Virus record (IMG/VR): IMGVR_UViG_3300046535_001472
Location: 1 to 21,270 of that record
Source: a virus
Strand: one strand, 5' to 3'
DNA length: 21,270 nt
Below are positions 1 to 21,270 of the stretch, one piece after another. The translations under genes and the position numbers were made by a program. Each line of letters begins with the position of its first letter. Within the stretch, counting starts at the first letter, position 1. The notes under the pieces are model-generated. The model was given only the letters and a program-made list of their open reading frames with translations, searched no databases and had not been told where the DNA came from.

Positions 1-350
1 GTCGCGCGGTCCCCCCGTGCCGCTCCTTGCTCAGAGGACCCCGTTCCTTGGTCATCAAGGATAGCTCCTTGATTGCTCCTTGCTCCAGCGCTCATCGCCT
101 TGGTCCTTGCTCCCGATCCTTGATCCTTGGTCCCTCGCCTTGGTCGCGCGTGCCGCTCCTTGGTCCTTGCTCCCGTCGCCGTAGCACATAGAGGCGAGCA
201 AGCAAGGAGATTGCGTCGATGTACCCGCCCCACCAAGGAGTGGGACGATCAAGGAGAGTGGTGATGCCGTGATGATCAAGGAGATGGTGACCACCATCGC
301 AGATGGTCGAGCAAGGAGTAGTGGGCACCGCTCCTTGATGCACGTTCTTG
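1..350. repeat. CCTTG-rich noncoding repeat array
   Basis: No convincing gene lies in this stretch. It is built from closely spaced copies of CCTTG or its complement CAAGG, about 19 in the first 362 bases, mostly as TCCTTG followed by A, G or C. Longer direct repeats are embedded: CCTTGGTCCTTGCTCCCG occurs at 98-115 and exactly at 158-175 (60-bp offset), and GTGCCGCTCCTTG at 17-29 and 150-162. CCTTG dominates to about 180, then the orientation flips to CAAGGAG from about 200 to 320. Open frames across it translate into repetitive low-complexity peptides, which argues against coding. The array sits just downstream of the leftward tail gene. It could be a cluster of protein-binding sites, an origin-type iteron region or a recombination hot spot; the sequence does not decide between these. 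Confidence 0.75.
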
Positions 351-941
351 CTATCTCCTTGTTCGCATCGCCCGCTCTATGGCGAGCGGCATTGTCCTTG
401 CTAACTCGCGCAACATTGATGTGGCGAAGTCATCATGAAATGGGACGCGCTTCGGGATGTTGGTCTTCGGCTTCAACACATAGAGCAAGGTCAATCGGCC
501 CTTCCGGTCACGGCTGTAGAGCACGTCGCCCTTGCGCACCGCAGTCGGCATGTTCTTCGGACGGAACCTTGCTGGTACGCCGCTCTGTGTCCTTGATATC
601 GTGGACGCAGGCACAGCAAGGTTAGAGCCGCCCATCGGGGCGCGCGTGCCGCCCATCGCCTGCTTTAGGAGATTGCCGCGATCAAGTTTATCGTAGATTT
701 CGACGGCGAGGGATTGCTTGCTGGCGCGGCTCTCCTTGGTGGTGAGCGATGCCATAATGAAGGAACCGTTCCTTGCATTGACGTGCTGCGGCCATGTGGC
801 CTTGGCGAGGAAGTTCCTTGTTACATCGGCGGCGCGGTTCAAGGCTATAGCCATCGCAAACGGAACCTGATCGGCCGCCGCACCAAGTGCCAGCGCCGTC
901 GCCTCGACTTCCGAGTAGTCCATTCGGACGCGCAGGACCAT
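351..941 (-). CDS. gpZ-like minor tail protein
   Basis: Encodes 196 aa. The pattern resembles the lambda gpZ-type minor tail or tail-completion family: an N-terminal helix with VPFAMAIALNRAADVT (about residues 26-41), a central variable region with MGGTRAPMGGSNLAVP, and a basic C-terminal helix ending IERAMRTRR. Length fits gpZ (about 190 aa). In lambda this protein acts late in tail assembly, so a virion role is inferred here. The start at 941 is supported by an AAGGA Shine-Dalgarno 7 nt upstream, itself part of a CAAGGA motif; an in-frame Met at residue 7 is an alternative. The gene is odd in context: its neighbours to the right are a surface protein and early-type genes, not tail genes, and the upstream gap carries two hairpins. 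Family assignment is by pattern only. Confidence 0.55.
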   Translation of the reverse strand: MVLRVRMDYSEVEATALALGAAADQVPFAMAIALNRAADVTRNFLAKATWPQHVNARNGSFIMASLTTKESRASKQSLAVEIYDKLDRGNLLKQAMGGTRAPMGGSNLAVPASTISRTQSGVPARFRPKNMPTAVRKGDVLYSRDRKGRLTLLYVLKPKTNIPKRVPFHDDFATSMLRELARTMPLAIERAMRTRR

Positions 942-966
942 GCGGCATTCCTTGATCAGGAAATCA

Positions 967-1006
967 GCGCACCGGAGACATGGGGTCTGGCTTGCCCCCG
1001 GTGCGC
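967..1006. terminator. Inverted repeat, possible terminator or attenuator
   Basis: Perfect 9-bp arms (967-975 GCGCACCGG and 998-1006 CCGGTGCGC) around a 22-nt loop, upstream of the gpZ-like gene and downstream of the leftward operon. There is no U-run, so it would be a weak intrinsic terminator at best; an attenuator, mRNA structure or binding site are alternatives. Confidence 0.35.
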
Positions 1007-1141
1007 CTTACTGGCAAACGTAGGTACTGAACTGATCCCCCGTTTAGCCAATCCTTGAATAGCGGCACGTTCCGATCCCGCTAAGTCCGTGCACTACAAG
1101 GATCACGCTCGCCGCGTGCGGGAACCTCTCTCGGTGTTCTT

Positions 1142-1180
1142 GCCCCACTGGCTGATCGAATGAGAAAAAGCCAGTGGGGC
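1142..1180. terminator. Inverted repeat at the end of the leftward operon
   Basis: Perfect 11-bp arms (1142-1152 GCCCCACTGGC and 1170-1180 GCCAGTGGGGC) flank a 17-nt loop containing AAAAA. It follows the last leftward ORF of the early operon, the expected position for a terminator. The loop is long and no T-run follows either arm, so a regulatory palindrome is also possible. Apart from this and the hairpin at 967-1006, nothing else is recognised between 942 and 1209. Confidence 0.4.
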
Positions 1181-1209
1181 GTCGGTGATGGCGGGAGTGT
1201 CTTACGCCA

Positions 1210-2726: not shown

Positions 2727-4310
2727 TCACTCCGCTCCTGGCCCATTGAATAAATCCCGTTCCTTGAACCGCCCCTGCTTGGACTTCGCAAATGCGATCA
2801 TGCGGCTCTTGACCCATTGATGCGTCTCGGCCGAGATGCTGCCCGCTGGCACAATGTCCTTGATCTCGTTCGCGGGCCAAACGCCCATCTTCTCGCGGTA
2901 CTGGTTCGCGGCCCATCCCGGCTTGTAGCCCTTGGTGCGCGCGTACGCCTTCAACTCAGCAAGAAACCGTGCCTTGTCGGCGATGGTGAAGTCCCGCGCC
3001 GGTCGCGCTTTCACTTTCGGCTGCGGCCTCAACTCGCGTAGCTCTCCTTCATCCGGCTTCACCTTGTTCTGCACTTGAGCAAGAAACCCGCACGATGGGC
3101 ACAGCGCCATCTTCGGCGGCTTCAGGTACGCGCACTGCGGGCACTCCTTGGGAAGGCGAATGCCCTCCGTCCTGTTTTCGTGCTGCGGTGTTTTTCCGTC
3201 GTGCAGGCCGATGTAGCTCGCGTCGATGTCGGTCACGAAACCAAGACGCTGATGATTGTCGCTGTGATCGAGGATCAAACAATGGTCCTTGCCCTCCGCA
3301 TTGCGCAAACCGCGCCCGATGATCTGCACGAACAGCATATCGGATTTCGTCGGGCGGCACATTGAAATGCAGCGTACGTCCCAATCAATACCCACGGTCA
3401 AGGTTCCCACGCTGCATACGACCTTGTATTCTCCTGAATGAAACTTCCTCTTGATCTGTTCCCGGCCCTCGATCCATTCGCCGGTCTTACGGCTGCGCTT
3501 CGTCGCCTTGTCCGTAAACGCATCGATGTAGCCGCATGGAATGCCCGCTGCTTGAAAATTAAGTTGTAGATGCTTCGCATGGGCACGATCAACCGCATAG
3601 CAGAGTGTCGCTCGACCTTCACCAAGCCTGATCCACGTATCCACGGCATCGGCAACCAATCTGCCATCGCTCATTTTCGCCGACAACTCTCCTTCGTGAT
3701 AGTCGCCCGCGATAATGCGAATTCCCGATAGATCGGGATGCGTCGGCGCAAAGACCTTGAACGGCGATAAATGCCCGCCGTCAATCATCTCTTGCGTAGT
3801 CGATGCCCGATGGAAGTGATCAAACCAACTGCCAAGACCCTTCGTCCAAGGCGTCGCGCTCAGACCTATGAACGGAACATCTCCCCATTCCGGCATCTTG
3901 TCCTTGGACAACCATCGCTCATAAAAGCGGAACCATCTGTGACACTCGTCCACCAGTACGACATCAGCCTGCGGGATGTTGTGCTTCATCAGGGTCTGCA
4001 CCGATGCGATCTGTACCGGCTGCGACCAATTCGTCATATGATGATCCGCCTGGATCACGCCGACATCATCGATGCCTTGTGTGTGAAACATCTCCACTGT
4101 TTGATCAACAAGACTGATCGTCGGCACCGTGTAGAGCACGCGTTTGTTGCGCTGCAAGGCATTCGTAACCAACACAGACGCCAACACAGTCTTGCCAAAA
4201 CCTGTCGGCGCTTGCATACAAATGCGGCGCTTTCCCTCTGCGACGGCATCGCGTAGGCTCTGTAATGCCGTTGCTTGATCGTAGCGTAGTTCCTTGATGA
4301 CCATACCCAT
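2727..4310 (-). CDS. SF2 DEAD/DEAH-box-like helicase with C-terminal zinc ribbon
   Basis: Encodes 527 aa, an ATP-dependent DNA or RNA helicase of superfamily 2, probably for phage replication or recombination. Visible motifs in order: a Q-motif-like RYDQ (residues 9-12), motif I APTGFGKT (34-41), motif II DECH (121-124), motif III SAT (151-153), and motif VI QIIGRGLRNAEGKD near residue 365. Two CxxC pairs (CPQC and CPSC, around 420-440) form a probable zinc ribbon, followed by a Lys/Pro-rich linker and a helical tail. The chosen ATG at 4310 shares one base with the upstream stop (TGATG) and has GGAG 8 nt upstream; ATG at 4304 is a close alternative. An extension to 4484 lies inside the upstream gene and is unlikely. 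It is the largest gene of the leftward operon. The family call is firm; substrate and polarity are not shown. Confidence 0.92.
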   Translation of the reverse strand: MGMVIKELRYDQATALQSLRDAVAEGKRRICMQAPTGFGKTVLASVLVTNALQRNKRVLYTVPTISLVDQTVEMFHTQGIDDVGVIQADHHMTNWSQPVQIASVQTLMKHNIPQADVVLVDECHRWFRFYERWLSKDKMPEWGDVPFIGLSATPWTKGLGSWFDHFHRASTTQEMIDGGHLSPFKVFAPTHPDLSGIRIIAGDYHEGELSAKMSDGRLVADAVDTWIRLGEGRATLCYAVDRAHAKHLQLNFQAAGIPCGYIDAFTDKATKRSRKTGEWIEGREQIKRKFHSGEYKVVCSVGTLTVGIDWDVRCISMCRPTKSDMLFVQIIGRGLRNAEGKDHCLILDHSDNHQRLGFVTDIDASYIGLHDGKTPQHENRTEGIRLPKECPQCAYLKPPKMALCPSCGFLAQVQNKVKPDEGELRELRPQPKVKARPARDFTIADKARFLAELKAYARTKGYKPGWAANQYREKMGVWPANEIKDIVPAGSISAETHQWVKSRMIAFAKSKQGRFKERDLFNGPGAE

Positions 4311-6408: not shown

Positions 6409-6563
6409 TTGCTTGCTCGCTTCGCTCTTGGATTGGTGCCCAACGCCCGTGGATTTGTGCCCGCCGCTCTTTTTGGCCCCGGTGGCAATTTTTCGCCGCC
6501 CCAATCCTTGACCCATGTTTTACGCCCGTTCACAAATCTCACTCTCAGCCTTGGTTTTTTCAT
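6402..6563 (-). CDS. Short basic protein (53 aa), leftward operon
   Basis: Encodes 53 aa: MKKPRLRVRFVNGRKTWVKD, then WGGEKLPPGPKRA and a GTNPRALGTNPRAK repeat. AGGA sits 5 nt before the ATG at 6563, and the TGA overlaps the next ATG as ATGTTGA. The N-terminal part has the alternating basic/hydrophobic/Trp pattern of a small beta-rich fold. It is very basic, so nucleic-acid binding is possible. The same stretch is open in the next gene's frame, so only one of the two readings is likely to be used. Confidence 0.5.
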   Translation of the reverse strand: MKKPRLRVRFVNGRKTWVKDWGGEKLPPGPKRAAGTNPRALGTNPRAKRASKC

Positions 6564-7017
6564 CTCGGTCCTACTCTCTGTAGTGCCTTCCTTACTTTCT
6601 TTTCCCTTACTTCCTTGTTGGTAGCCTCTTTCTTTCTTACTCCCTGGCCACTCCCCCTCCCCTCTCCACGCTACTCGCCTGCATCAAGGCAGCGGTCCAC
6701 GTTCGCCTAAGTGGGCGTGACGTGCGGTGGAACAAGAAGTAGAGGGAATGGCCCGCGATTGCGCCTTGTTCGCGTGCCTGTCTGGCAAGTTGTTTGCTGC
6801 CGTGCGGTCCAGACGGGGCAAGCCCCTACTCTCCGCGCGTCTCACCAAAAACACTTGAAGGAGCAAGGGGAAGGTGCTATTTGATGCACCAAGATCGGCC
6901 TTGATCGCACAAGGTTTGGATCGAGAGGGGCGGTTCCGCGATCAACGGGCCGCCCTTCGCTATTTGGTAGCCTGCACCCGCGCCCGGTGATTTGGCAAGA
7001 CCTTTGTCGCGGGATCG
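6564..7017. other. Noncoding gap with purine/pyrimidine-skewed tract
   Basis: This 454-bp interval splits the leftward operon. No convincing gene is seen; one Arg-rich frame at 6684-6866 has no ribosome binding site or recognisable motif. From about 6575 to 6668 the plus strand is dominated by C and T, so the leftward transcript would be a long run of A and G (GGAGAGGGGAGGGGGAG and AAGAAAGAAAGAGG). Such a tract could be an unstructured leader, a ribosome standby site or a protein-binding RNA. Around 6931-6954 a GGGCGG/CCGCCC pairing gives a weak hairpin. An internal promoter may lie here but none stands out. Confidence 0.5.
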
Positions 7018-7224
7018 TCATAAATTTTTCCCTTGACCGATATTTCGGCGGAAAAATAGGTCAGCATCGCTGTCCTCTTGATGGCGGGACCAATCTGTTC
7101 GATTGTACGCGGGCCAAGCCCCGACCATGCTGTCGCGCCACGTGCCATTCCATAGCGTCTGGAAGCTCCCGCACGCGAGGCACCAACGCCGCGCCCCGAC
7201 TTCAATCCATTCGTGTTTGCTTAT
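7018..7224 (-). pseudogene. CxxC small protein without a recognisable start codon
   Basis: The frame reads SKHEWIEVGARRWCLACG, then SFQTLWNGTWRD, and ends GQGKNL. A CxxC in a WCLACGSFQ context is typical of short phage zinc-knuckle-like proteins. At the expected start, where sibling genes have ATCCCCATGAGC, this locus reads ATCCCCACAATAAGC, so the ATG appears changed to ATA. The preceding 17 bases match the repeated gene-junction sequence seen at four other starts, supporting a lost start rather than a chance frame. It may be a decayed gene or use a rare AUA or a coupled start. Another minus-strand frame at 6960-7205 overlaps it and is less protein-like. Confidence 0.4.
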
Positions 7225-7245
7225 TGTGGGGATTTCTGCTCCACG

Positions 7246-7803: not shown

Positions 7804-8300
7804 GGGGATTTCTGCTCCAGGGCGGTTTTTGCTACCGCATGGCATAAAGCGGCGCGATAGCCATTATCCCGGATTTCCATGAGCGCCGCCCGTAGCCGCT
7901 CGATCTCGGCGTCTCGCAGGTCAATGCCAATTTCCAGTATATCAAAAGCAGCATTATGGGAGAGGATCACGTCCTTGTCGGTTCGCAGCCGCTCGATCTC
8001 GGCCGCCGCTTCCTTCTTGGTAAGCTCGCGAGGGGTTGTCGGTGGAGATGAGAGGCACGTCTTAGTGAGGCTGGCAAGAGCTTCAACAAACGGGTGTTCT
8101 CGACCTTCGCCGGCCGCAGCCGCGAGGGTTTGTATCCATGCGGGCACCGCCGGATCATCACGAAGCGCCTGAAATATCGCTCGCAGTTGCTCAATCTCGG
8201 CCTCGCGGTTGCTGATAAGCGCGCGCAACAGCGCGTTGGCCTTCATCAGGTCATCGCGTTCGGCCCGCAGCCGCTCGATCTCGAAACTGGCGTAGCTCAT
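7800..8300 (-). CDS. Long multi-copy coiled-coil protein, EIERLRAAL family (copy 4)
   Basis: Encodes 166 aa. It starts MSYASFEIERLRAERDDLMK and contains four heptad cores: FEIERLRAE near residue 6, REAEIEQLRAIF near 33, AAAEIERLRTDK near 99 and DAEIERLRAAL near 129; it ends TALEQKSP. It looks like several single-core siblings fused by in-frame recombination; the block RELTKKEAAAEIERLR almost repeats the start of copy 3. Predicted structure is an elongated coiled coil with a short Pro-rich break (LSSPPTTPREL). Both ends show ATGA overlaps. Role unknown; a scaffold or accessory to the adjacent resolvase is possible but unsupported. Confidence 0.7.
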   Translation of the reverse strand: MSYASFEIERLRAERDDLMKANALLRALISNREAEIEQLRAIFQALRDDPAVPAWIQTLAAAAGEGREHPFVEALASLTKTCLSSPPTTPRELTKKEAAAEIERLRTDKDVILSHNAAFDILEIGIDLRDAEIERLRAALMEIRDNGYRAALCHAVAKTALEQKSP

Positions 8301-8845
8301 GGGGATTTCTGGCGTCCTTGGAACAGCGGCGTTGTTCGCATCGCGAGATCAGGCCGCAGGAAACAGCACTGATAATCCCACAAGGCGCACGCGTCGGCCT
8401 CGTCATAGGTCACGACATCCCATCCGAGTTCCTTGCATCGCGCCATCGTTTTCGGCTTGGCGAGTATCGCCTTTTTGTTGCTGCCGATGAAGTGGGATCG
8501 CACTTGTGACACGCTCGCCTCGCGCAATTCGAATTTGCCGTAACACCATTCCTCCAGATGCTCTGAAAGACCAAGCAATAGTTTGATGGTGTCGATGTTG
8601 GTTTTGCCTGACATGATCGAGGGCACCGCAGGGCTTTCGAACACGATCAGATCAGGTTGCTTGTCGCGAACATTCCAGATGTCTTCCAGCCAGATGCGAA
8701 AGTTTCGATAGGTCAAGGCGCGCGAGGTTCCGGGCTTACTCAAACGGATACTGCCAAACTTCGGAACAGCACCGGGCTTCCCCCACGCGAAGCCGGTGAC
8801 GGTGGCAAGATCGAGAGCAAGGACGGTGCCGGTGAATTTCGACAC
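8297..8845 (-). CDS. RuvC-like Holliday-junction resolvase / RNase H-fold nuclease
   Basis: Encodes 182 aa with the acidic constellation of RuvC-type nucleases: D12 in VLALDLATVTGFAWG, E70 in LIVFESP, and D148 and D151 in TYDEADACALW. Length fits RuvC (about 170-190 aa). Such enzymes cut branched DNA during phage recombination or before packaging. The start is a GTG at 8845 sharing one base with the upstream TAG, with GAGGGG 8 nt upstream. The protein ends QGRQKSP, the same QKSP ending and ATGA junction as the coiled-coil family that follows, suggesting that the junction DNA has been exchanged. It acts in the cytoplasm. Confidence in the fold is high; substrate specificity is inferred. Confidence 0.85.
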   Translation of the reverse strand: MSKFTGTVLALDLATVTGFAWGKPGAVPKFGSIRLSKPGTSRALTYRNFRIWLEDIWNVRDKQPDLIVFESPAVPSIMSGKTNIDTIKLLLGLSEHLEEWCYGKFELREASVSQVRSHFIGSNKKAILAKPKTMARCKELGWDVVTYDEADACALWDYQCCFLRPDLAMRTTPLFQGRQKSP

Positions 8846-13221: not shown

Positions 13222-13228
13222 ACGCGAA

Positions 13229-13250
13229 CGGGGCGGGTCACGCCGCCCCG
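13229..13250. terminator. Hairpin between convergent genes
   Basis: CGGGGCGG (13229-13236) pairs with CCGCCCCG (13243-13250) around a 6-nt loop. It lies between the 3' end of the ParB fusion (13221) and the last codons of the leftward GapR-like gene (stop 13238-13240), so it may act on both transcripts. No T-run follows on either side, so its efficiency is uncertain. Confidence 0.45.
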
Positions 13251-13690
13251 ATAGTCTCGACGGTCCCAAGGTCCGGCGCGGGCGACTTCTCGGCCTTCTC
13301 CTTTTTGGCTTTCGGCTCTTTCGGCTCCTTGGGCGGCTTGGGGATAGGCGGCAACTCACCAAACAACAACAATTGCCGCTTATCGCCCTGCGCCTTGGCC
13401 AATTTCTCGACCATCTTGCGCTCGTCGGCTTCGAGATCAGCAACCCATCCCTTGATCTTCTCCAAGGCAAGGATGATTTTGATCTCGGTCTTCGCCGACT
13501 TCTGCGACACGCCGCGCACCGCCATGTCTTCGTAGATCGCGGTCATACCCTCCTTCTCGCGCCGCGCCTTGTTCATGTAGACGCCGCGCGCACTCTCGAT
13601 GTTGGCGAAGTGAGCAAGGATGTCCTTGACGAACTTGCTTGTCATTCGCTCCGTCACTTCAACGTCAACCGACTTCGCTTCCTTAGCCAT
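13238..13690 (-). CDS. GapR-like (DUF2312-like) helical DNA-binding protein candidate
   Basis: Encodes 150 aa from the ATG at 13690 with AGGAG 5 nt upstream. Residues about 28-110 form a charged antiparallel helical bundle: FANIESARGVYMNKARREKE, then GMTAIYEDMAVRGVSQKSAK and ALEKIKGWVADLEAD. The order of a basic helix, an AIYEDMAxxG turn and a second Lys-rich helix recalls GapR/DUF2312 proteins, which clamp overtwisted DNA in Alphaproteobacteria. GapR itself is about 90 aa; here a Pro/Lys/Glu-rich tail of about 40 residues follows (PPIPKPPKEPKEPKAKKEKA). It overlaps the GcrA-like gene by 8 nt and is the last gene of the Cro-GcrA-GapR-like operon. The assignment is by pattern and could be wrong; a generic phage DNA-binding protein is the alternative. 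Confidence 0.5.
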   Translation of the reverse strand: MAKEAKSVDVEVTERMTSKFVKDILAHFANIESARGVYMNKARREKEGMTAIYEDMAVRGVSQKSAKTEIKIILALEKIKGWVADLEADERKMVEKLAKAQGDKRQLLLFGELPPIPKPPKEPKEPKAKKEKAEKSPAPDLGTVETIGAA

Positions 13691-14162
13691 ATGATCTCCT
13701 GACAACTGCCGTTGGTGAAATGTAAATCCGCAAGTGGGCACGGCAGTATGGCGACTTGCAGCCTCCGATGTATTCCTCCGCACGCGGCAAACCACAGACC
13801 ATCTGAAGTCTGTGTTTGTCGTCGCTGCGCTTATCAAGGATCGCCTTGCATCCGTTCTCCGTGTTGTCGAGGTACGCGACACCTTCTAACCAACAAAGCC
13901 CCTCCATGCTGATTGGTTCTGTAGCCATAACGATCCCCCGTTTGATGCCCCTTTGTCTTATCCTACCCCGCTGCAAGTGCGGACGCTTGCAGACAACTCC
14001 CGACGCCCTGATCCGATGAAGGCGACCAGCAACCATACTCGGCGTAATGTTGTTGTGGCCCCGCCGCTGCATCTCCTTGGACGCCGCTTGCTGCGAGTAC
14101 CCCGACAGCCACAACGAAGTCATTAGCGCATCCATCTCGCTGGTCCAGGGCGGCGCTCTCAT
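13683..14162 (-). CDS. GcrA-family cell-cycle regulator homologue
   Basis: Encodes 159 aa from the ATG at 14162, which overlaps the previous stop as ATGA; AGGGGG lies 4 nt upstream. The N-terminus (PPWTSEMDALMTSLWLSGYS, then QQAASKEMQ and TPSMVAGRLHRIRASG) is the GcrA helix-turn-helix: Trp-Thr followed by an LWxxGxSxxxIAxxL-like pattern and GKVHRL-like GRLHRI. The C-terminal part has the expected Cys cluster (CKAILDKRSDDKH, VCGLP, KSPYCRAHLRIY). In Caulobacter and relatives GcrA binds sigma-70-bound RNA polymerase and acts at promoters carrying CcrM-methylated GANTC sites. A phage copy could redirect host transcription or regulate phage genes. The window itself contains no GANTC that I could find. 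Confidence 0.8.
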   Translation of the reverse strand: MRAPPWTSEMDALMTSLWLSGYSQQAASKEMQRRGHNNITPSMVAGRLHRIRASGVVCKRPHLQRGRIRQRGIKRGIVMATEPISMEGLCWLEGVAYLDNTENGCKAILDKRSDDKHRLQMVCGLPRAEEYIGGCKSPYCRAHLRIYISPTAVVRRSYG

Positions 14163-14398
14163 TTTTCCCCCTCGAAGAGATTGGGATGCTCCAAGAAGAT
14201 GTCTGGCCGGATCGCTTTCGGCGGCAGTCCCATGATGCGCGCCACAACATTGACCCGTAGCGCCGGGACCTTGGTCCACTGCCCAACCGCCTGCCGCTGG
14301 ATGCCGCAGGCGGCGGCGATCTTAGCCTTCAACCCGCGCGTCGCGCCGATCTGGACGCAAACCTTGTCCTTCTTGGTCACTGGCTCCCTCGAATTCAT
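14159..14398 (-). CDS. Cro/YdaS-like HTH regulator
   Basis: Encodes 79 aa from the ATG at 14398: MNSREPVTKKDKVCVQIGA, then LKAKIAAACGIQRQAVGQWTK and VPALRVNVVARIMGLPPKA. This is the Cro/YdaS pattern, a short HTH with QRQAVGQW as recognition helix followed by RV..VARIMGLPP. The frame extends upstream to 14617, but that part has no Shine-Dalgarno and overlaps the promoter region. Upstream TTTACA and TATCCT boxes fit a short leader of about 22 nt. It is the first gene of a leftward operon with the GcrA-like and GapR-like genes, divergent from the recombination operon, the usual position for a lytic/lysogenic switch protein. Confidence 0.75.
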   Translation of the reverse strand: MNSREPVTKKDKVCVQIGATRGLKAKIAAACGIQRQAVGQWTKVPALRVNVVARIMGLPPKAIRPDIFLEHPNLFEGEK

Positions 14399-14426
14399 CC
14401 AGAAAATGTTTCCACGACAACGGGCA

Positions 14427-14454
14427 AGGATATCGAAGTCCGGGCCAATGTAAA
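14427..14454 (-). promoter_or_regulatory. Candidate promoter of the Cro-GcrA-GapR-like operon
   Basis: On the minus strand TTTACA (14454-14449, 5 of 6 to the -35 consensus) and TATCCT (14432-14427, 4 of 6 to the -10 consensus) are 16 nt apart. The -10 box is part of TATCCTTG, so a CCTTG motif overlaps it. The transcript would begin near 14420, giving a leader of about 22 nt. Confidence 0.5.
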
Positions 14455-14478
14455 GAAGTGCTTGCACGGCGAAGCGAA

Positions 14479-14535
14479 CAAGGCTACAACCTTGGAGTTG
14501 AGTTCCTTGACACACTAAAGCGCGGTCGAAAATGG
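14479..14535. promoter_or_regulatory. CCTTG palindrome and candidate rightward promoter (operator region)
   Basis: CAAGGCTACAACCTTG at 14479-14494 is an inverted repeat of the enriched CCTTG motif (5-bp arms, 6-nt centre). Seventeen bases downstream of its first half a perfect -35 box TTGACA (14507-14512) follows inside TTCCTTGACA, with a weak -10 candidate near 14530. This would drive the operon starting at 14616. A repressor recognising CCTTG would cover this -35 box and the -10 box of the leftward promoter. The rest of 14399-14615 shows no gene. Confidence 0.4.
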
Positions 14536-14615
14536 CAAAAGTCAGCGATGTATTCACCAAGGGACTAGGGCATCGCACTTGATTGTGATCCCTGACCAAA
14601 CAAAAGGGAGTAATC

Positions 14616-14885
14616 ATGACCGACGAAGAGCGACAGGATTACGTTGTTAACCTTGCTGACAGGATCAACAAGGTACTTGCTGGCGAGCGTTCGGACGATG
14701 CGCAAACCGCGCTGACGCTGGCTGTTGCCTGTCAGATAGTTGCCGCTGCGGCAAGCACCGATCAGATACCGCAGATATCCAAGGTGTTCGCCAGTCAACT
14801 GGATGGCTTCGTGCGACGCGATGACATGGTTGAGTGGATCAAGGCACATACCACGTTTGCCCCGGCAGCAAGAAGGGATCAGTGA
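14616..14885 (+). CDS. Small phage protein, first gene of the recombination operon
   Basis: Encodes 89 aa: MTDEERQDYVVNLADRINKV, then an acidic and Ala-rich helical middle (QTALTLAVACQIVAAAAST), then SKVFASQLDGFVRRDDMVEW. GGGAG lies 5 nt before the ATG. The stop shares a base with the next start (TGATG), so it is coupled to the RecE-like gene. No domain is recognised; small helical proteins in this position sometimes modulate recombination, but there is no direct evidence here. Confidence 0.7.
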   Translation: MTDEERQDYVVNLADRINKVLAGERSDDAQTALTLAVACQIVAAAASTDQIPQISKVFASQLDGFVRRDDMVEWIKAHTTFAPAARRDQ

Positions 14886-15817
14886 TGAAAGTCATTCCCT
14901 GGAACGGCAGACGGATCACCAAGCCGGGTTGGTACAGCGGCATTCCGATTGAAACATATCACAGTGCAGAACTATGCCTTGGCAAGGCGGTTTCGTCATC
15001 CGATCTGCGGACGTGCTGGAGCAAATCTCCTGCGCATATGTTTGTCAGATGGGCAGAGAACCCGAAACGCGAAGAGCGTAAGGTGACGGATCAGATGTTG
15101 CTTGGTGCGGTCGCGCACCATCTTCTGCTTGGCGAAGGAAGTTTCCGCACAAAGTACATTCCGTTCCCGGAGACGTATCGCGACAAGAAAACCGCCGTCG
15201 AAAAGCCGTGGCACAACGGTGCGGATGCCTGCAAGGCGTGGGTTACGAAGCAAACACTCGCTGGCAGGGTTCCAGTGCCGGTCAAGGACTTGCTCAAGAT
15301 GGTGGAGATGGCGAAGTCGCTCGCGCTGGAACCATTGGTGCGCGATGGCTTGTTAGTTGGCCACATCGAATGTTCCGGCTTCGTCAAAGACAAGGACACG
15401 GGCCTGTGGATCAAGACCCGCCCCGACGTGGTCCCGATGGTGAGCGACTTCGTTGATCTGAAGACCGCGAGCGAAGTGACGACGCCAGCGTTGCAATCAT
15501 CGATCCGCACCTACGGCTATCATCAGCAAGGAGCCTTGGTTTGGGAAGTCTGCGAGCAACTAGGATTGCCCTTCGAGAGCTTCACCTTGCTCTTCATCGA
15601 GACTGACATCCCCTATTGCGCCCGCACCGTCCCACTTCCTGATGACGATCTCGCACGCGGGCGACTTCAGAACCGCGCCATGCTGCGCCGGATCAAGCAG
15701 TGCATCGACACCGAGCACTGGCCCGGACCCGGCGAGGGCGACATCCGCCCGCTGCCCTTGTCCAAGGACGAGCGTGAGCGCATTGATGCAAGATTGAAAC
15801 TGGAGAACGTGACATGA
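14885..15817 (+). CDS. RecE-like exonuclease (PD-(D/E)XK, exodeoxyribonuclease VIII type)
   Basis: Encodes 310 aa, a putative 5'-3' dsDNA exonuclease for phage recombination. Visible features: SSSDLRTCWSKSPAHMF near residues 37-53; LLGAVAHHLLLGE (72-84), the H-x-LLLG helix; IECSGFVKDKDTGLWIKTRP (161-180) leading to D181 and DFVDLKTA with D191-L-K193, the PD-(D/E)XK core; and YGYHQQGALVWE (210-221) with the conserved Gln. These match the RecE C-terminal nuclease domain as seen in short phage versions. The start overlaps the preceding stop. The RecT-like gene lies 0.6 kb downstream in the same operon. Acts on DNA ends to give single strands for the annealase. Confidence 0.85.
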   Translation: MKVIPWNGRRITKPGWYSGIPIETYHSAELCLGKAVSSSDLRTCWSKSPAHMFVRWAENPKREERKVTDQMLLGAVAHHLLLGEGSFRTKYIPFPETYRDKKTAVEKPWHNGADACKAWVTKQTLAGRVPVPVKDLLKMVEMAKSLALEPLVRDGLLVGHIECSGFVKDKDTGLWIKTRPDVVPMVSDFVDLKTASEVTTPALQSSIRTYGYHQQGALVWEVCEQLGLPFESFTLLFIETDIPYCARTVPLPDDDLARGRLQNRAMLRRIKQCIDTEHWPGPGEGDIRPLPLSKDERERIDARLKLENVT

Positions 15818-16044
15818 GCAAGAGCATCCTGACACGACTACCGGAGAAAATGCGCAAACTACTAACAACAAGTCGCGAGCCGTGGCACATCGAGATAGGC
15901 GGGCGGCACTTCAAATTAAAGATAGGAAATCGCCTCGTTGCTATCCTACCGAGGGGCGGCAATTTGTCTGGCTTCCACGGACGCGCGGACAAGAACGCGA
16001 TGGCGAACATCAAGCGCGCGATCAGAGAGCAAGGGGAGGGCTGA
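15814..16044 (+). CDS. Small protein, possibly HicA-like fold, unknown
   Basis: Encodes 76 aa: MSKSILTRLPEKMRKLLTTS, then WHIEIGGRHFKLKIGNRLVA, ILPRGG and ANIKRAIREQGEG. The order strand-strand-loop-helix with a basic surface resembles HicA-like or double-stranded RNA-binding folds, but the conserved catalytic His of HicA toxins is not evident and no HicB partner follows, so a toxin role is unlikely. ATGA overlap at the start and TGATG overlap at the end tie it to the recombination operon. Unknown function. Confidence 0.6.
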   Translation: MSKSILTRLPEKMRKLLTTSREPWHIEIGGRHFKLKIGNRLVAILPRGGNLSGFHGRADKNAMANIKRAIREQGEG

Positions 16045-16421
16045 TGCCGAAGAACAAGGTATCGAGGTTCGATAAGAACGTCGGAGAGCGCATCCGCGAA
16101 GCACGCATAGCGAAGCGGATGTCGCAGACCAATCTCGGCGATCTCCTTGGTGTATCGTTCCAGCAAGTGCAAAAGTACGAGACAGGCCGAAACCGCGTGA
16201 GCGGCGAGCGGCTTGAATTGTTGGTCACGGCATTGAGCCGTCCGCTTGGCTTCTTCTTGCAGAGCGTCACCGACGTGCGTGCCGCCCCGGACCCGTTCGC
16301 CGCCATGCGGGCGAGCAAGGACGGGCATGAGTTGGCGGCGATGTGGACGAAGATGGAACAGCAAGACCATCACTGGCTGGTAGTCTCCGCGAGGCGTCTA
16401 ACAAGGAACGGGAGTGTCTGA
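16044..16421 (+). CDS. XRE-family HTH transcriptional regulator
   Basis: Encodes 125 aa. Residues about 13-68 form a classic XRE helix-turn-helix: NVGERIREARIAKRMSQTNL, GDLLGVSFQQVQKYETGRNR, VSGERLELLVTALSRPLGFF. The remainder is not recognised. A strong GGGGAGGG precedes the TGATG overlap start at 16044; the frame runs upstream to 15882 as a shadow of the neighbour. Being inside the recombination operon, between RecE-like and RecT-like genes, it may repress this or another phage promoter. With the Cro-like protein at 14159 it is the second candidate for a master regulator. Confidence 0.85.
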   Translation: MPKNKVSRFDKNVGERIREARIAKRMSQTNLGDLLGVSFQQVQKYETGRNRVSGERLELLVTALSRPLGFFLQSVTDVRAAPDPFAAMRASKDGHELAAMWTKMEQQDHHWLVVSARRLTRNGSV

Positions 16422-17436
16422 AATGGTGGACGTAAGCGAAGTCGAGAAGCGGGTTGATCGCGCAGTGACGGCAACGATCCCCGTCAGCGCGCACCTTGGT
16501 GGCATCGATCCCGAGAACTACGGACAAGTCATGGAGTTCGCCAAGACGATGGCGACGTGCCGCGCGGGCATTCCGAAATGGCTGCGCGGATCGGTTGGTG
16601 ATTGCTTGATGATCTGCACGCGCGCACTGCGTTGGGGTATGGACCCGTTCTTCGTCGCGGAGAAATCCTACTTGATGATCAGCCCGAAGAGCGGCGAAGA
16701 GCGGATCAGCTACGAGAGCCAATTGGTCCACGCCGTGATCGAGGCGCTTGCTCCTATCAAGGGCAGGCTACGCCATGAGATCAAAGGCGAGGGCGACGAA
16801 CGCTACTGCGTGGTATGGGCGACGTTCAAAGGAGAGGACACGCCGCACACTCACACCAGCGAAACGCTTGGCAAGCGCATCAAGGATATCGGCAAAAGCG
16901 AGAAGGGAAACTTTCGTGGCTCGCCGCTGTGGCTGACGAAACCAGCGGTGCAATTGTTCTACGATGCTTCACGTGATTGGTGCCGCGTGAACTGCCCGGA
17001 AGTCCTTGCTGGCGTCTATACGCGTGACGAGCTTGCGGACCATGAGATGGTCGATGTCACGCCGCCGAAGAGCAAGGTTGAGGAACTTGCGCAGCGATTG
17101 CGTGATCGGAAGATGGAGCACGCGCAACAAGGCTTCGATGCGGGGCACGTCAAACATGAGGCAGCGGCGCGTAGCTCGATCATCGAGGAAACCGCTCAAC
17201 AGGAGAAGACCGATGAACCTACCAAAGACCGCAGTGATGCAGATGACGATAAAGAACGGGGAGACGGTGTTCACGATAGAACAGATGATCCTGCACACCA
17301 GAGCGGAGATGCTGGCGGTGTCAGCGGAGATGCGGCGACTGTCGCGGAACATGCCGGATCATCGAGCGCGGGCGAGAAAGATCAAAGCGAAATCTTCCCG
17401 CCAGACCGCAAGCCGTCGAAAGGGAAGCGCAAGTGA
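16414..17436 (+). CDS. RecT-family single-strand annealing protein
   Basis: Encodes 340 aa from a GTG at 16414 (AAGGA 6 nt upstream); ATG at 16423 with GGGAG is an equally good alternative. The core (about residues 25-215) has the RecT pattern: MEFAKTMATCRAGIPKWLRG, SVGDCLMICTRALRWGMDPF, SYLMISPKSGEERISYESQL, AVIEALAPIKGRLRHEIKG, and LWLTKPAVQLFYDASRDWCR. RecT annealases pair complementary single strands made by RecE-type nucleases; the RecE-like gene is upstream in the same operon. From about residue 265 the sequence becomes an acidic, Asp/Gly/Ser-rich low-complexity tail, exactly where a second frame opens at 17213. The tail may be an overprinted extension rather than a functional domain. 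Core assignment is firm. Confidence 0.88.
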   Translation: MSEMVDVSEVEKRVDRAVTATIPVSAHLGGIDPENYGQVMEFAKTMATCRAGIPKWLRGSVGDCLMICTRALRWGMDPFFVAEKSYLMISPKSGEERISYESQLVHAVIEALAPIKGRLRHEIKGEGDERYCVVWATFKGEDTPHTHTSETLGKRIKDIGKSEKGNFRGSPLWLTKPAVQLFYDASRDWCRVNCPEVLAGVYTRDELADHEMVDVTPPKSKVEELAQRLRDRKMEHAQQGFDAGHVKHEAAARSSIIEETAQQEKTDEPTKDRSDADDDKERGDGVHDRTDDPAHQSGDAGGVSGDAATVAEHAGSSSAGEKDQSEIFPPDRKPSKGKRK

Positions 17437-17470
17437 TACTGCTACGACAGAGACGACCGCGCGTCAGTGA
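17213..17470 (+). CDS. Possible overprinted gene inside the recT 3' end (85 aa)
   Basis: In the +1 frame relative to the RecT-like gene, an ATG at 17213 follows AGGAG by 7 nt. The product begins MNLPKTAVMQMTIKNGETVF and continues TIEQMILHTRAEMLAVSAEM, a balanced alternation of strand and helix that looks like a real small protein up to about residue 50; the last 30 residues are basic and low in complexity. Before 17213 the same frame is Arg-rich junk, so the change in character coincides with the start. It overlaps RecT's tail over its first 224 nt and the HNH-like gene by 38 nt. No family recognised. Confidence 0.45.
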   Translation: MNLPKTAVMQMTIKNGETVFTIEQMILHTRAEMLAVSAEMRRLSRNMPDHRARARKIKAKSSRQTASRRKGSASDTATTETTARQ

Positions 17471-17768
17471 CGTAAAATACCTTGCTTGGCTCCGTACGCA
17501 GCCGTGCGCGTGCTGCGGACAATCCGGCCCGTGCGATGCCGCGCATCTTCGTGCGTCCTCGATCAAACATTCCAAAGACCAAGCAATAGGGCGTAAGCCT
17601 GATGACAAGTGGGCACTGCCGCTGAAACACGACCACCATATGGACCAGCACAATTTCGGCGACGAGATTGGTTGGTGGAGGGCGCATGGCGTAGCTGATC
17701 CGTTTGCGCTGTGCCGGGCGCACTATCGTCGCTATCTGCAACACTTCAAACAAGGAGATCATCTATGA
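17433..17768 (+). CDS. HNH-like nuclease (DUF968/Ref-type pattern)
   Basis: Encodes 111 aa. It starts with a GTG that overlaps the RecT stop as GTGA. Motifs: QPCACCGQSGPCDAAHLRAS (a CxxC followed by a His), then DDKWALPLKHDHHMDQHNFG with a HDHH cluster, and GDEIGWW. This order is typical of short phage HNH nucleases of the DUF968/Ref type, which bind zinc through the Cys pair and cut DNA through the His pairs. In P1, Ref is a RecA-dependent nuclease; such genes often sit with recombination genes, as here. The specific reaction is inferred. It overlaps the next start as ATGA. Confidence 0.75.
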   Translation: MILLRQRRPRVSDVKYLAWLRTQPCACCGQSGPCDAAHLRASSIKHSKDQAIGRKPDDKWALPLKHDHHMDQHNFGDEIGWWRAHGVADPFALCRAHYRRYLQHFKQGDHL

Positions 17769-18181
17769 CCGACATCGCCATGCGACTTCCAGCTAACCGC
17801 CAGCATCCGCGTCCCACCATTGATGCGGAGATGTCGCACACGCTCGCGATGCTCAATCAACCATTTGATCACGAAGGACTGCGCCCGACTGTCGAGCACG
17901 TTGATGAAGACGATATCGGACGCTTGTCGGCGGAAGCCGTGCAGGCGCAGTACGAGGCAACGGCGAAGTGCGTCGAACAGATGGGCGAGATGATCTTGGA
18001 CAACATGGCGAAGGTCCAAGCGCTGACGAAGGAGGCCGACGCAGCCCTGAAGTTGATAGCTGAAGCGGCGAAGGTCGTGCGCGACAAGGGTAATCTGTTC
18101 AGCGCTCAGATCGACCAAGCAAGCGCCGCGCTCAAAGCGGCGTGCGACACGTGCAAGGCGGTGATGGAGCGCAACGGCTAA
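17765..18181 (+). CDS. Helical protein, last gene of the recombination operon
   Basis: Encodes 138 aa. AAGGAG lies 7 nt before the ATG. The N-terminal third is Pro-containing (MRLPANRQHPRPTIDAEM); the rest is long helix rich in Ala, Lys and Glu (AEAVQAQYEATAKCVEQMGE, then ALTKEADAALKLIAEAAKVV), probably a coiled-coil hairpin, with two Cys near the C-terminus (CDTCKAVMERNG). Proteins of this style are frequent in alphaproteobacterial phages and I know no function for them. The stop is followed directly by the hairpin at 18186-18221. Confidence 0.7.
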   Translation: MTDIAMRLPANRQHPRPTIDAEMSHTLAMLNQPFDHEGLRPTVEHVDEDDIGRLSAEAVQAQYEATAKCVEQMGEMILDNMAKVQALTKEADAALKLIAEAAKVVRDKGNLFSAQIDQASAALKAACDTCKAVMERNG

Positions 18182-18221
18182 AAAAGGCCCCGCGCGAGTG
18201 TCATCAGTCTCGCGCGGGGCC
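18180..18221 (-). terminator. Strong intrinsic terminator for leftward transcription
   Basis: A perfect 13-bp stem (18186-18198 GGCCCCGCGCGAG, 18209-18221 CTCGCGCGGGGCC) with a 10-nt loop. The minus strand continues from the stem into six T residues (18185-18180), the layout of a Rho-independent terminator for the leftward tail/lysis transcript. On the plus strand the hairpin follows the recombination operon directly but is followed by AAGGAAGG, so it can only be a weaker terminator there. Confidence 0.8.
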
Positions 18222-18261
18222 AAGGAAGGCTGTACCCTACAACTCCTTGATAGGTGAAACT

Positions 18262-18603
18262 ATGACGCCGATCAAGATCGTTCTGTTCTCGGCCGTGCTG
18301 ACGCTCACGCTGGCGTTCACTCTGCATCGCATGTCCTTGATGCGGCCAAGCCGCGCTGCGGAAGACAATCCCTTGAACTACTCGTACTGGCCCGCGCTCC
18401 CGAAGACAGACCGGGAGCCGCTGCGGATCACGCCGCCGCCGCCGGTGCCGATACCGGAGCCGCTCGTGCACGAAGTCCTTGTGTCGCGGCCGAATGCCGT
18501 CACCAAGAAGCCGCCGCCATCCGACGATGGTATCTGCGCGCGGTATAATCTGCACAAGGTCTGGACGCCGAATGGCAAGTCGTGGCACTGCCGCCCGCAC
18601 TAA
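18262..18603 (+). CDS. Membrane-anchored Pro-rich envelope protein
   Basis: Encodes 113 aa from the ATG at 18262 with GGTG upstream. An N-terminal hydrophobic segment (IKIVLFSAVLTLTLAFTL, residues 4-21) acts as a signal anchor or signal peptide. Then follow a Pro-rich stretch (ITPPPPVPIPEPL) and a C-terminal module with two Cys (DDGICARYNLHKVWT, then GKSWHCRPH). I recognise the last pattern (CxRxxLxKVxTxxGxSWxCR) from many small exported proteins of Bradyrhizobium and Rhodopseudomonas, which supports the host guess. It stands alone between the leftward terminator and parS, so it is probably a moron with its own control. The two Cys may form a periplasmic disulfide. Function unknown. Confidence 0.65.
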   Translation: MTPIKIVLFSAVLTLTLAFTLHRMSLMRPSRAAEDNPLNYSYWPALPKTDREPLRITPPPPVPIPEPLVHEVLVSRPNAVTKKPPPSDDGICARYNLHKVWTPNGKSWHCRPH

Positions 18604-18665
18604 GCTCTTGCGGCGGCAGTGATTTCCTTGTAGAACCGATTTTGGGAGCATCGAGAAGTGGCCAG

Positions 18666-18681
18666 TGTTTCACGTGAAACA
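18666..18681. promoter_or_regulatory. parS: Consensus parS site
   Basis: TGTTTCACGTGAAACA at 18666-18681 is a perfect 16-bp palindrome identical to the parS sequence recognised by chromosomal ParB of Caulobacter and many Alphaproteobacteria. It lies in the noncoding gap 18604-18772 that otherwise shows no gene. By composition alone a perfect match is not expected in 21 kb. No other convincing copy was found. Chromosomal ParB of the host, or the ParB-domain protein at 11734-13221, are the candidate ligands. Confidence 0.85.
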
Positions 18682-18772
18682 AGGAAAACGGCCAGCGCGG
18701 CCCGCTGAGTGCCCTTCCTTGATCCCGCCATCCCCCTAGCGCTCGACCCCCAAAAGCCTACAGACGGCCGGT

Positions 18773-18961
18773 CTATCCAAGGATTTGTCCCTGTTTGCGG
18801 GGAGGGCGGGCGCTTACAGTCGCCCCTACAGTTTGAAGCACGTTGGTTCGTGCTGCCGTCCCCGGCTCCTTGTACCGCGCCTTGAGCCGGATCGCGAGCG
18901 CAGCCTTCCGATAGATCGCCAGAAGCGCCGCGCGTCTGCGCTCGCGATCCTTGCACGTCAC
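18773..18961 (-). CDS. Small basic protein (62 aa), end of the lysis cassette
   Basis: Begins with a GTG at 18961 that overlaps the preceding stop as GTGA. It reads VTCKDRERRRAALLAIYRKA, then ALAIRLKARYKEPGTAARTN and a basic C-terminus (SARPPRKQGQILG). The N-terminal half is a basic amphipathic helix. No Shine-Dalgarno is seen, so translation would rely on coupling. The frame extends to 19105 as a shadow of the neighbours. It might assist lysis or be a spurious downstream frame; the GTGA overlap favours a real gene. Confidence 0.45.
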   Translation of the reverse strand: MTCKDRERRRAALLAIYRKAALAIRLKARYKEPGTAARTNVLQTVGATVSARPPRKQGQILG

Positions 18962-19068
18962 GGCGTCAGGTCCGCTGGCGGCACGTCCACGAACAGGTAG
19001 AGCGCCAGCACAACAAGGATAATCGCGATGAAAATCGCTGCGACGAAATAGATCGTGCGATCCTTCAT
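18958..19068 (-). CDS. Tiny single-TM protein of the lysis cassette (36 aa)
   Basis: Encodes 36 aa: MKDRTIYFVAAIFIAIILVV followed by LALYLFVDVPPADLTP. A short charged N-terminus precedes one transmembrane helix and a short acidic periplasmic tail. ATGA overlap with the holin-like gene upstream and GTGA overlap with the next gene. Its size and location suggest an antiholin, holin partner or small lysis accessory, but no family is recognised. The frame extends to 19221 only as a shadow of the neighbour. Confidence 0.6.
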   Translation of the reverse strand: MKDRTIYFVAAIFIAIILVVLALYLFVDVPPADLTP

Positions 19069-19295
19069 CGGAAAACCGGACGGGGCAGACCCGGTCCCAT
19101 GCCAATGACGCCGGAAATCCAGATGACGATGGCGATCAAGCAAAGCAATCCGACGATTACTCTGCCCCACTTCTCGATGTTGGCATCGAGGCTCCAACCC
19201 ATGAAGGAGACGATCAACCATCGGATCGCGAACGCAACGAAGATCACGATTGCGATGTAGAGCAGCAAGTACAGAAAGCTAATCAGTATGGCCAT
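19065..19295 (-). CDS. Holin-like two-TM protein
   Basis: Encodes 76 aa from the ATG at 19295, chosen because AAGGAG lies 8 nt upstream; a GTG at 19304 would overlap that Shine-Dalgarno. Two hydrophobic helices are clear: AILISFLYLLLYIAIVIFVA (about 2-21, continuing FAIRWLIV) and VIVGLLCLIAIVIWISGVIG (about 46-65), joined by a loop with SLDANIEKWGR. Small size, two membrane spans and position directly downstream of an endolysin point to a holin, which releases the endolysin through the inner membrane. The family is not identified, so this is inferred from layout. Confidence 0.55.
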   Translation of the reverse strand: MAILISFLYLLLYIAIVIFVAFAIRWLIVSFMGWSLDANIEKWGRVIVGLLCLIAIVIWISGVIGMGPGLPRPVFR

Positions 19296-19300
19296 GCTCG

Positions 19301-20257
19301 TCACTCCTTGTAGGGGAAGATCACCGTAACCTCGTCATCGGTGGTGAGATCGAGATCGTCCATCAATCCCGGCGAGATATCGGCGACGCGTCCAGTGTCT
19401 TCGTGCGGTCCCCAATCCGCAGGAAACGCGGTCAAGGAAATGCCGCTCTCCACCGCAGTGACCAAGGCGACGTGATCGAGCATTTCGCTTTTCGGAACCT
19501 TGTCGTAGTTCCAGCGGCACGCGATGTAGTGCACGTACGGGTTCAGGCGGCGCGCAAGCCCCGTGCAGCCTCCCGGCGCGTACGGCAGGAACAGTTGCGG
19601 CGCTTGATTGATGTCGTTGATGAATGCCAAACCTTCTTCCGGCGACACGCCGGTATCGTCCGGCCCTCCGAAACTCGAAACCTTGCCCGTAACGGTGAAC
19701 GTCTCATCATCCTCGTCGGGCGGCGCAACGATGAAGTCCGTTCCGGCGATGACAGATGCAATCGCCTTGCAGATCGCATCAAACTGCATTGCGTAAACCT
19801 CCGCATCCGCTTCGCTGTCAACGAAGCAAGTCTCGATCAGTATTGATGGCATCGTGGTGCCATTGAGGAACGCTAGATCAGTGCGCTTCTTCGCGCCGCG
19901 ATCTTTGAAGCCGACACTGGCGATTGCCTTGGATACATCGGCCGCAAGCGCGCCCTGCGTGACGTACAAGACTTCGACGCCCATCGGGCCGCTCACTTGC
20001 TCGTAGGCATTGAAATGCACCGAGATATCAAGATCGCGCTGACGGTCGTTGTGATAGTCCACAATGCGATCAAGGTTCTCGCTCTGCGTCGTGCTCTCGT
20101 TGTCGTGGAACGTGATCACCGACACGCCGCTCTTTTCAAGCATGGTCGCCACGTGATCAACCACGCGGCGGGCTTCGTCCACTTCATCAAGGATGCCGCT
20201 TGCGCCGCGCACGTACTTGCCGTGGCCGGATGAAATCACAACGCGTTGGTAGGTCAT
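19301..20257 (-). CDS. N-acetylmuramoyl-L-alanine amidase endolysin with C-terminal DPBB-like domain
   Basis: Encodes 318 aa. Residues 1 to about 175 are an Amidase_3-type zinc amidase: ISSGHGKY with H12, LDEVDEAR supplying E25 or E28, DISVHFNAY with H81, and ILIETCFVD with E142. It cleaves the amide bond between N-acetylmuramic acid and L-alanine in peptidoglycan. After an acidic linker (PPDEDDETF) the C-terminal domain reads YVHYIACRWNYDKVP, TAFPADWGPHEDTGRVADIS and LDLTTDDEVTVIFPY. The ADWGPH...GRVADISPGL pattern resembles double-psi beta-barrel (RlpA-like) domains, so it may bind or also cut glycan strands. No signal peptide is seen, fitting holin-dependent export. AGGGGG precedes the ATG by 4 nt. 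It follows the spanin-like gene with a 9-nt gap. Confidence 0.85.
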   Translation of the reverse strand: MTYQRVVISSGHGKYVRGASGILDEVDEARRVVDHVATMLEKSGVSVITFHDNESTTQSENLDRIVDYHNDRQRDLDISVHFNAYEQVSGPMGVEVLYVTQGALAADVSKAIASVGFKDRGAKKRTDLAFLNGTTMPSILIETCFVDSEADAEVYAMQFDAICKAIASVIAGTDFIVAPPDEDDETFTVTGKVSSFGGPDDTGVSPEEGLAFINDINQAPQLFLPYAPGGCTGLARRLNPYVHYIACRWNYDKVPKSEMLDHVALVTAVESGISLTAFPADWGPHEDTGRVADISPGLMDDLDLTTDDEVTVIFPYKE

Positions 20258-20266
20258 GCTGCCCCC

Positions 20267-20542
20267 TCACGGATTGATGTTCAACTTGCGCGTCATCACG
20301 TCAACGATGCGGTCGATGCTTTGCTTGTTGTCCTTCGTCTGCGCTTCCAGCACGGTCAAACGACCGTCGATCACAACAACATGTGGTGAACCACGCACTT
20401 CAAGAGTGCTCACGCGCGTTTCCAGCCGCACCATGTACGCCGTGATACTCAACGTCGCAGCACCAAGCGCCACCGCCTGCGCGATCAAGAATATGACCAG
20501 CGCGTGGTTGTCCTGAAACCATGATCGTACTTTGTTGATCAC
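20267..20542 (-). CDS. Single-TM coiled-coil protein, spanin-like candidate
   Basis: Encodes 91 aa from a GTG at 20542 that overlaps the tail-fibre stop as GTGA. A short basic N-terminus (MINKVRSWFQDN) is followed by one transmembrane helix (ALVIFLIAQAVALGAATLSI) and a periplasmic coiled coil (LETRVSTLEVRG, then RLTVLEAQTKDNKQSIDRIV). This is the layout of an inner-membrane spanin, or of small proteins that precede amidases in alphaproteobacterial phages. No lipoprotein partner (outer spanin) is visible in the window, so the name is provisional. Confidence 0.6.
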   Translation of the reverse strand: MINKVRSWFQDNHALVIFLIAQAVALGAATLSITAYMVRLETRVSTLEVRGSPHVVVIDGRLTVLEAQTKDNKQSIDRIVDVMTRKLNINP

Positions 20543-21270
20543 TTTGCTTCCAGCGTTTCGATACGCGCCTTCAATTCCTTCACCGCATTCACCAGCGCGA
20601 AGATCAGTGGCGTAGTGTCGAGCACACGCATATCATCGACCGACAAACCGTCAATGTAGGCATTGGTCAGCGTAACCATTTCCGGGAACACGGCCTCGAC
20701 TTCTTGCGCGATCAAGCCAGCAAATTTTCGTTCATCAGATGCCGATTGAGAATGACTGCTAGTTGGATAAGGTGCCGTCTTCGTGGCATCCGGTGCGTCC
20801 TGTGTGTCATTGCCCTTGTATGCGTAGACAACAGGCCGCAATTTGGCAATGTCGTCGAGGCCACGCTTGTACTCGCCTTGCACGTTCTTGATACGAATGT
20901 CGGAACTGTCAGCCCACGCGCCGCCACCCGGCTTGTAGCCGTTGAAGTTCGCCGTGATGTTGCCGCAAGTGAAGTTGTTGGACGAGAGATTACCTGTGCA
21001 TGTTACCAGTCCGGATGCACGTGTGATAGTGAGCGCCGCACCAAGATTTGCACCAGCGTCACTATACCGACTGACAGTCCAGTCACTCCCAGCATTGCTG
21101 CCAGTCTCCGACGTGCTCTCACCCATCTGCAAGACCCAACGAGCATAGCTACCAGTTTGTGACATCAGCACGCATGCCTGACCCGATGCGTTCTTAATCA
21201 TATTTATTGTAGGCGATGTTCCCTGGATAATAATTGCCGTGCCATTGCCCATGTTTAGATTGCCAGTCAT
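20539..21270 (-). CDS. Tail fibre C-terminus with S74 intramolecular chaperone (partial)
   Basis: The 5' end lies beyond the window: the frame is open to the last base and the visible Met is not a convincing start. The visible 243 residues begin with repeated beta-type sequence (TGNLNMGNGTAIIIQGTS, then TGNLSSNNFTCGNITANFNG) typical of triple-stranded fibre shafts. From about residue 115 the Peptidase_S74 chaperone domain appears: WADSSDIRIKNVQGEYKRGL with the Ser-Asp catalytic dyad, IAKLRPVVYAYKGND, and FAGLIAQEVEAVFPEMVTL. It ends in a coiled coil (VKELKARIETLEAK). In this family the domain assists trimerisation and then cleaves itself at the Ser. The fibre probably binds the host surface. 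It overlaps the spanin-like gene as GTGA. Confidence 0.9.
   Translation of the reverse strand: MTGNLNMGNGTAIIIQGTSPTINMIKNASGQACVLMSQTGSYARWVLQMGESTSETGSNAGSDWTVSRYSDAGANLGAALTITRASGLVTCTGNLSSNNFTCGNITANFNGYKPGGGAWADSSDIRIKNVQGEYKRGLDDIAKLRPVVYAYKGNDTQDAPDATKTAPYPTSSHSQSASDERKFAGLIAQEVEAVFPEMVTLTNAYIDGLSVDDMRVLDTTPLIFALVNAVKELKARIETLEAK

Follow-up and report, generated by a model that had tools for sequence, protein, structure and literature searches.

IMG/VR virus record IMGVR_UViG_3300046535_001472, classed as linear, was analysed over its entire length of 21,270 bp (hereafter the window) and is probably a fragment of a phage genome. Its products include a phage helicase, a RuvC-like resolvase, RecE, RecT, an amidase endolysin, the end of a tail fibre and a protein weakly matching GcrA. 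No isolated phage is close to it, and no near DNA match was found for positions 9897-21270. The property of interest here is the complete absence from this DNA of GANTC, the word methylated by the alphaproteobacterial methylase CcrM. The features on which the argument draws are as follows.

1-21270, no strand: the whole fragment, with no GANTC (about 87 expected) and also no RGATCY, CGATCG or MAGCTK, by word counts.
2727-4310, minus strand: DEAD/ResIII phage helicase, used for the relative search and the tree; no GANTC (GANTC-containing sisters have at most five in the same gene).
6517-7245, no strand: presumed non-coding stretch, no GANTC by word count (about 2.6 expected), alone too short to inform.
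8297-8845, minus strand: RuvC-like resolvase, second tree marker, common to relatives.
9897-13221, plus strand: three-gene cassette, from profile matches, encoding a DUF262/GmrSD_N-like protein, an uncharacterised protein of 245 amino acids and a ParB + DUF5131 radical SAM protein.
13683-14279, minus strand: GcrA-like protein (weak Pfam match), found in GANTC-free and GANTC-containing relatives.
14834-15817, plus strand: RecE-like exonuclease (DUF3799), common to relatives.
16414-17436, plus strand: RecT-like annealing protein, first marker for finding relatives.

An earlier note on this DNA had claimed, from a scan by eye, that GANTC is wholly missing, and a program count agrees, with no match in the window to GAATC, GACTC, GAGTC or GATTC. 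The Markov expectation is 107 sites at order 1, 87 at order 2 and about 53 at order 3, the last figure being conservative since the 4-mers are depleted too. Simulating the order-2 model 1000 times gave a mean of 87.5 (standard deviation 8.8, minimum 57), while 300 synonymous shuffles of the codons of 35 open reading frames, which leave the proteins unchanged, gave a mean of 43.1 (standard deviation 5.3, minimum 26). Composition, codon use and by-eye error are thus ruled out as causes of the zero by the pattern count, the shuffles and the simulations, and the claim that strong selection rather than composition is at work is supported. The remark that related words are common also holds, with GATC occurring 187 times (198 expected) and GAATTC nine times. 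GANTC is the most depleted palindrome of the window and, among the 484 reverse-complement 5-mer pairs with an expectation of at least 10, the only two at zero are GAATC/GATTC and GACTC/GAGTC, which together make up GANTC. Its lack is uniform, since the helicase-side left part, the recombination genes, the right end and the cassette at 9.9-13.2 kb are all without a site. In the cassette, about 15 sites would be expected, and none is found even though these genes are essentially without homologues in sister phages (a single radical SAM match of 27%, in G014).

The earlier note had treated GANTC as the sole word selected against, which did not stand. The palindrome census against a Markov model does place GANTC as the most depleted, but RGATCY (0 of 34 expected), MAGCTK (0 of 25) and CGATCG (0 of 22) are absent as well, and CCWGG is purged just as thoroughly in sister phages. 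CCWGG, CCKMGG and GGCC are reduced in the window, CCWGG to 10 of the 37 expected. GATC as such is hardly depleted, since it is retained with different flanking bases.

Searches with the helicase, RecT and RecE retrieved about 90 viral loci, and the phages nearest to the window are likewise GANTC-free, with 0 of 54 expected sites in G007, 0/74 in G012, 0/131 in G013 and 0/36 in L055. Over these and the window (five non-redundant contigs), not one site is found against about 383 expected, giving a 95% upper bound of about 0.8% of expectation and suggesting that each site is nearly lethal. Sisters with genes just as similar, at 60-65% identity, nevertheless keep GANTC (104/142 in G003, 56/130 in G009, 43/76 in G002 and 135/259 in G004), and within this clade the ratio of observed to expected is either 0 or 0.4-0.7. 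The same sisters are without CCWGG (0/70 in G003, 0/73 in G009, 0/63 in G002 and 0/221 over the 80 kb of G004), as are the more distant outgroups G014 (0/178) and G015 (0/242), in which GANTC stands at about 0.4. The window seems to have partly regained CCWGG. RGATCY is at or near zero in most of the clade, G007 (7/16) being an exception. The losses concentrate on palindromes: the 5-mers at zero in these genomes are constituents of GANTC or CCWGG, except for CCCCC in G007 and CAAAA and CCTAG in G009, the 6-mers at zero include many restriction palindromes (CGATCG, CGGCCG, GCCGGC, CCGCGG), and most of the other 6-mers shown, themselves not palindromic, form part of degenerate palindromes.

The kinship of these phages is confirmed by shared core genes with about 55-71% protein identity and by gene order. 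The helicase tree implies that GANTC status switched at least twice and weakly rejects a single clade of GANTC-free phages (approximately unbiased test, p-AU 0.03). The RuvC tree agrees with it, while the RecE tree conflicts, as expected from recombination. At helicase positions where sisters have GANTC, the GANTC-free phages have identical amino acids encoded by other codons in 25 of the 49 aligned comparisons, as in the replacement of CGA ATC by CGC ATT.

Helicase relatives in bacterial genomes are mostly alphaproteobacterial and mainly from Hyphomicrobiales (Bradyrhizobium, Methylobacterium, Microvirga, Bosea, Mesorhizobium, Devosia), with a few, including the top match, in metagenome-assembled genomes labelled as other phyla, so that Hyphomicrobiales are the presumed hosts of the phage lineage. 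CcrM is encoded by 119 of 121 sampled genomes of this order, essentially always once, and the CcrM-type RAMA domain is found in all eight searched alphaproteobacterial genomes with a helicase relative, whereas the betaproteobacterial one lacks it. Twelve 20-kb pieces of Hyphomicrobiales chromosomes contain GANTC at 0.40 of expectation (351/874), CCWGG at 0.93 and RGATCY at 0.79. Since the chromosomes of the presumed hosts retain these words, the zeros are specific to the phages.

A second instance of complete loss comes from a distantly related prophage of Aureimonas sp. AU22, a strain with CcrM in its genome. A 35.2-kb contig stretch (227,247-262,490) is devoid of internal GANTC where about 134 sites are expected. 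Its edges are sharp, the next longest gap nearby being 3.7 kb, and it encodes a terminase, a portal, a capsid, a tape measure, a primase, a repressor-like protein and a helicase (46% identical), the phage genes identifying it as a prophage. Only GANTC has been purged from it, CCWGG and RGATCY being near normal.

The absence of GANTC is probably the outcome of restriction-site purging, with GANTC as one of several targets. As in type II restriction-site avoidance, the loss exceeds what composition and codon use can produce, several palindromic words are affected, and the word is kept in the chromosomes of the presumed hosts. In the scenario that we propose, a lineage of tailed phages would infect CcrM-bearing Hyphomicrobiales, and a single GANTC site would expose incoming or replicating DNA to a putative GANTC-cutting type II endonuclease present in the host community. 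Host chromosomes would be shielded by CcrM methylation of GANTC, and phage DNA would not, either because it arrives from outside or because it replicates faster than the cell-cycle-limited CcrM can act. Other palindromes (RGATCY, CGATCG, and CCWGG in relatives) would have been purged likewise. Restriction is favoured because the loss is complete, where a mild cost would leave sites behind, because losses concentrate on palindromes, because words unrelated to CcrM are totally lost in parallel, and because the set of lost words turns over between sister lineages. Three observations weigh against this explanation. In the 121 Hyphomicrobiales genomes, searched on the methylase side, CcrM was not accompanied at E<=1e-40 by a second methylase of CcrM/HinfI type, which would have been the mark of a GANTC restriction-modification system (two partial matches occur in one genome). 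Something other than restriction may account for part of the pressure, given the chromosomal under-use of GANTC (PMC3973325; 0.40 here). Finally, the purge of GANTC alone in the AU22 prophage could mean that there is something special about this word.

The last point also fits the main competitor, in which phages would do without GANTC so as not to be drawn into the CcrM/GcrA circuit of the host: sites in methylated or hemimethylated form would recruit GcrA or the methylase and disturb phage transcription or the timing of replication. The near-universality of CcrM in the presumed host order, the hosts' own under-use of GANTC in coding DNA and the GcrA-like protein encoded by relatives are in line with it. 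This scenario is unlikely, however. The GcrA-like gene occurs both in GANTC-free phages (the window and G013) and in sisters with GANTC (G002, G003, G004 and G009), and so it is not the cause of the absence. The assignment itself, made in the earlier note, is weak (Pfam E 8.7e-5, under the curated cut-off). Moreover, a regulatory cost should spare intragenic sites, none of which is left, sisters with the same presumed hosts hold 43-135 sites per record, and CCWGG and RGATCY, which have nothing to do with CcrM, are lost in the same all-or-none manner. Of the two options that the earlier note had left standing, HinfI-like restriction is therefore the better fit. It is highly improbable that the phages simply share a general alphaproteobacterial under-use of GANTC, whether mutational or weakly selective. 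Alphaproteobacterial chromosomes do under-use the word about two-fold, mainly in genes (PMC3973325), and in most of the alphaproteobacterial loci retrieved no palindrome was more depleted than GANTC; but this background lies mostly at 0.25-0.7 rather than at 0, the clade of the window shows 0 or 0.4-0.7, and the AU22 prophage is sharply delimited within its contig.

Two further proposals would place the relevant enzyme in the phages. A phage-encoded nuclease directed at GANTC in host or competitor DNA, with the phage's own genome kept free of sites, has candidates in the DUF262/GmrSD_N-like gene and in an HNH-like gene at 17433-17768 (HNH read from the sequence; no NCBIfam profile match). It is very improbable, since the DUF262 match covers just part of the N-terminal domain, with no homologue detected in other GANTC-free relatives, and the HNH-like gene is common to GANTC-containing sisters. 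The other proposal, that phages either methylate GANTC or delete it, refines the restriction hypothesis and does not compete with it: sisters would keep their sites through an adenine methylase of their own. MT-A70 is indeed found in the GANTC-containing G002, G003, G004, G014 and G015 but in none of the records that are free of GANTC (the records being incomplete), and GANTC methylases are known from alphaproteobacterial phages (phiLM21_p027, phi3LM21_p21 and PhiOC_p213; PMC5537653, PMC7139368). Nevertheless, no MT-A70 was detected in G009, which has GANTC, the MT-A70 proteins of the sisters differ in architecture, without detectable similarity to phiLM21_p027, whose GANTC methylase activity is proven, and the GANTC-free G007 encodes a methylase of a different (N6/N4) type, all of which make this refinement quite improbable. 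In the window, a fragmentary record, no match to PF01555, PF05063 or PF05869 and no homologue of phiLM21_p027 were found. In phages that carry a methylase of the phiLM21 type, GANTC stands at 0.25-0.36 of expectation (53/209 in phiLM21, 64/185 in RHph_Y25 and 67/185 in RHph_I1_23). Other methylases noted in GANTC-free relatives are the N6/N4-type protein of G007 (472 amino acids; L098, 8956-10374) and one of Dam type in G012 (2937-3311).

Restriction-site purging of this sort is ordinary in kind, being a case of restriction-site avoidance, and GANTC depletion has been published for SAR11 phages: about half of pelagiphages are depleted, and a GANTC-poor prophage region is present in Candidatus Pelagibacter giovannonii NP1 (PMC9516812, Microbiome 2022). 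As in that case, the phages are those of GANTC-methylating alphaproteobacteria, depletion clusters by phage clade, a GANTC-poor prophage sits in a methylated chromosome, and the depletion is reported without an identified restriction enzyme. The differences are that the phages described here are presumed to infect Hyphomicrobiales, that GANTC is at exactly zero over about 383 expected sites, that other restriction words are lost, and that status has changed at least twice within one clade. Phage avoidance of type II restriction sites in general shares the loss of palindromic words, their synonymous replacement and the lineage-specific sets of words; what departs from it is that the enzyme is inferred and that a near-universal regulatory methylase of the host, not a strain-specific one, acts on the main word. 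The under-representation of GANTC in chromosomes (PMC3973325) concerns the same word in the same bacteria, but is about two-fold and mainly in genes, while here it is total and everywhere. Phages with GANTC methylases (PMC5537653, PMC7139368) likewise answer the GANTC system of hosts of this class, but do so by methylating their sites, whereas the window is site-free and without a match to the methylase families tested. What is new here is the completeness of the loss, its recurrence and the rapid turnover of purged words.

The usual description of CcrM is that of a regulator of the cell cycle without a restriction partner. Zero GANTC in a phage clade and in a prophage, in bacteria whose chromosomes are protected at that word, indicates that for some phages a GANTC site without protection is probably lethal, and the question whether CcrM also serves immunity becomes directly testable. 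A bolder generalization, which we regard as unlikely, is that CcrM is the shared modification half of a class-wide immunity, in which GANTC-cutting nucleases could spread without a methylase of their own, GANTC being methylated already in nearly every alphaproteobacterium, and phages would either purge GANTC (this clade, the AU22 prophage and some pelagiphages) or carry a methylase. The turnover of words among sister phages would in addition be a readable record of the restriction specificities met by each lineage.

In line with restriction, all-or-none loss of other restriction words was also seen in isolated alphaproteobacterial phages: CCWGG (1/79) and RGATCY (0/54) in SIO1, RCCGGY (0/126) and CCWGG (0/91) in RcOceanus, and GATC (0/95) in HTVC019P (L181). 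Many unrelated alphaproteobacterial phages lack RGATCY entirely (0/91 in G004, 0/54 in SIO1, 0/42 in RcOceanus and 0/37 in Baldr, against 0.79 in chromosomes), which suggests a widespread restriction pressure directed at RGATCY; the set noted at zero comprises the window, L003-L007, L061, L062, L072, L076, L181, L182, L248 and L251. CTNAG is strongly avoided in pelagiphages, with 0/90 in Baldr (L251) and 13/143 in HTVC019P (L181), and L084, a helicase relative, has none of the 47 GATC sites expected in 14 kb, a complete purge of a different word.

Within the cassette, the protein of 245 amino acids resembles TcmP by eye and the ParB + DUF5131 radical SAM protein is related to 'radical SAM mobile pair protein A', a search for viral relatives of the latter having found none. 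Long proline/cysteine/alanine-rich repetitive frames at 57959-59515 of G004 are probably a non-coding repeat array. The product of the gene at 1304-2089 of the window (minus strand) begins like a signal peptide and has at its C terminus a sorting tail resembling PEP-CTERM (read by eye, no family match), with a 45% relative in phage G003.

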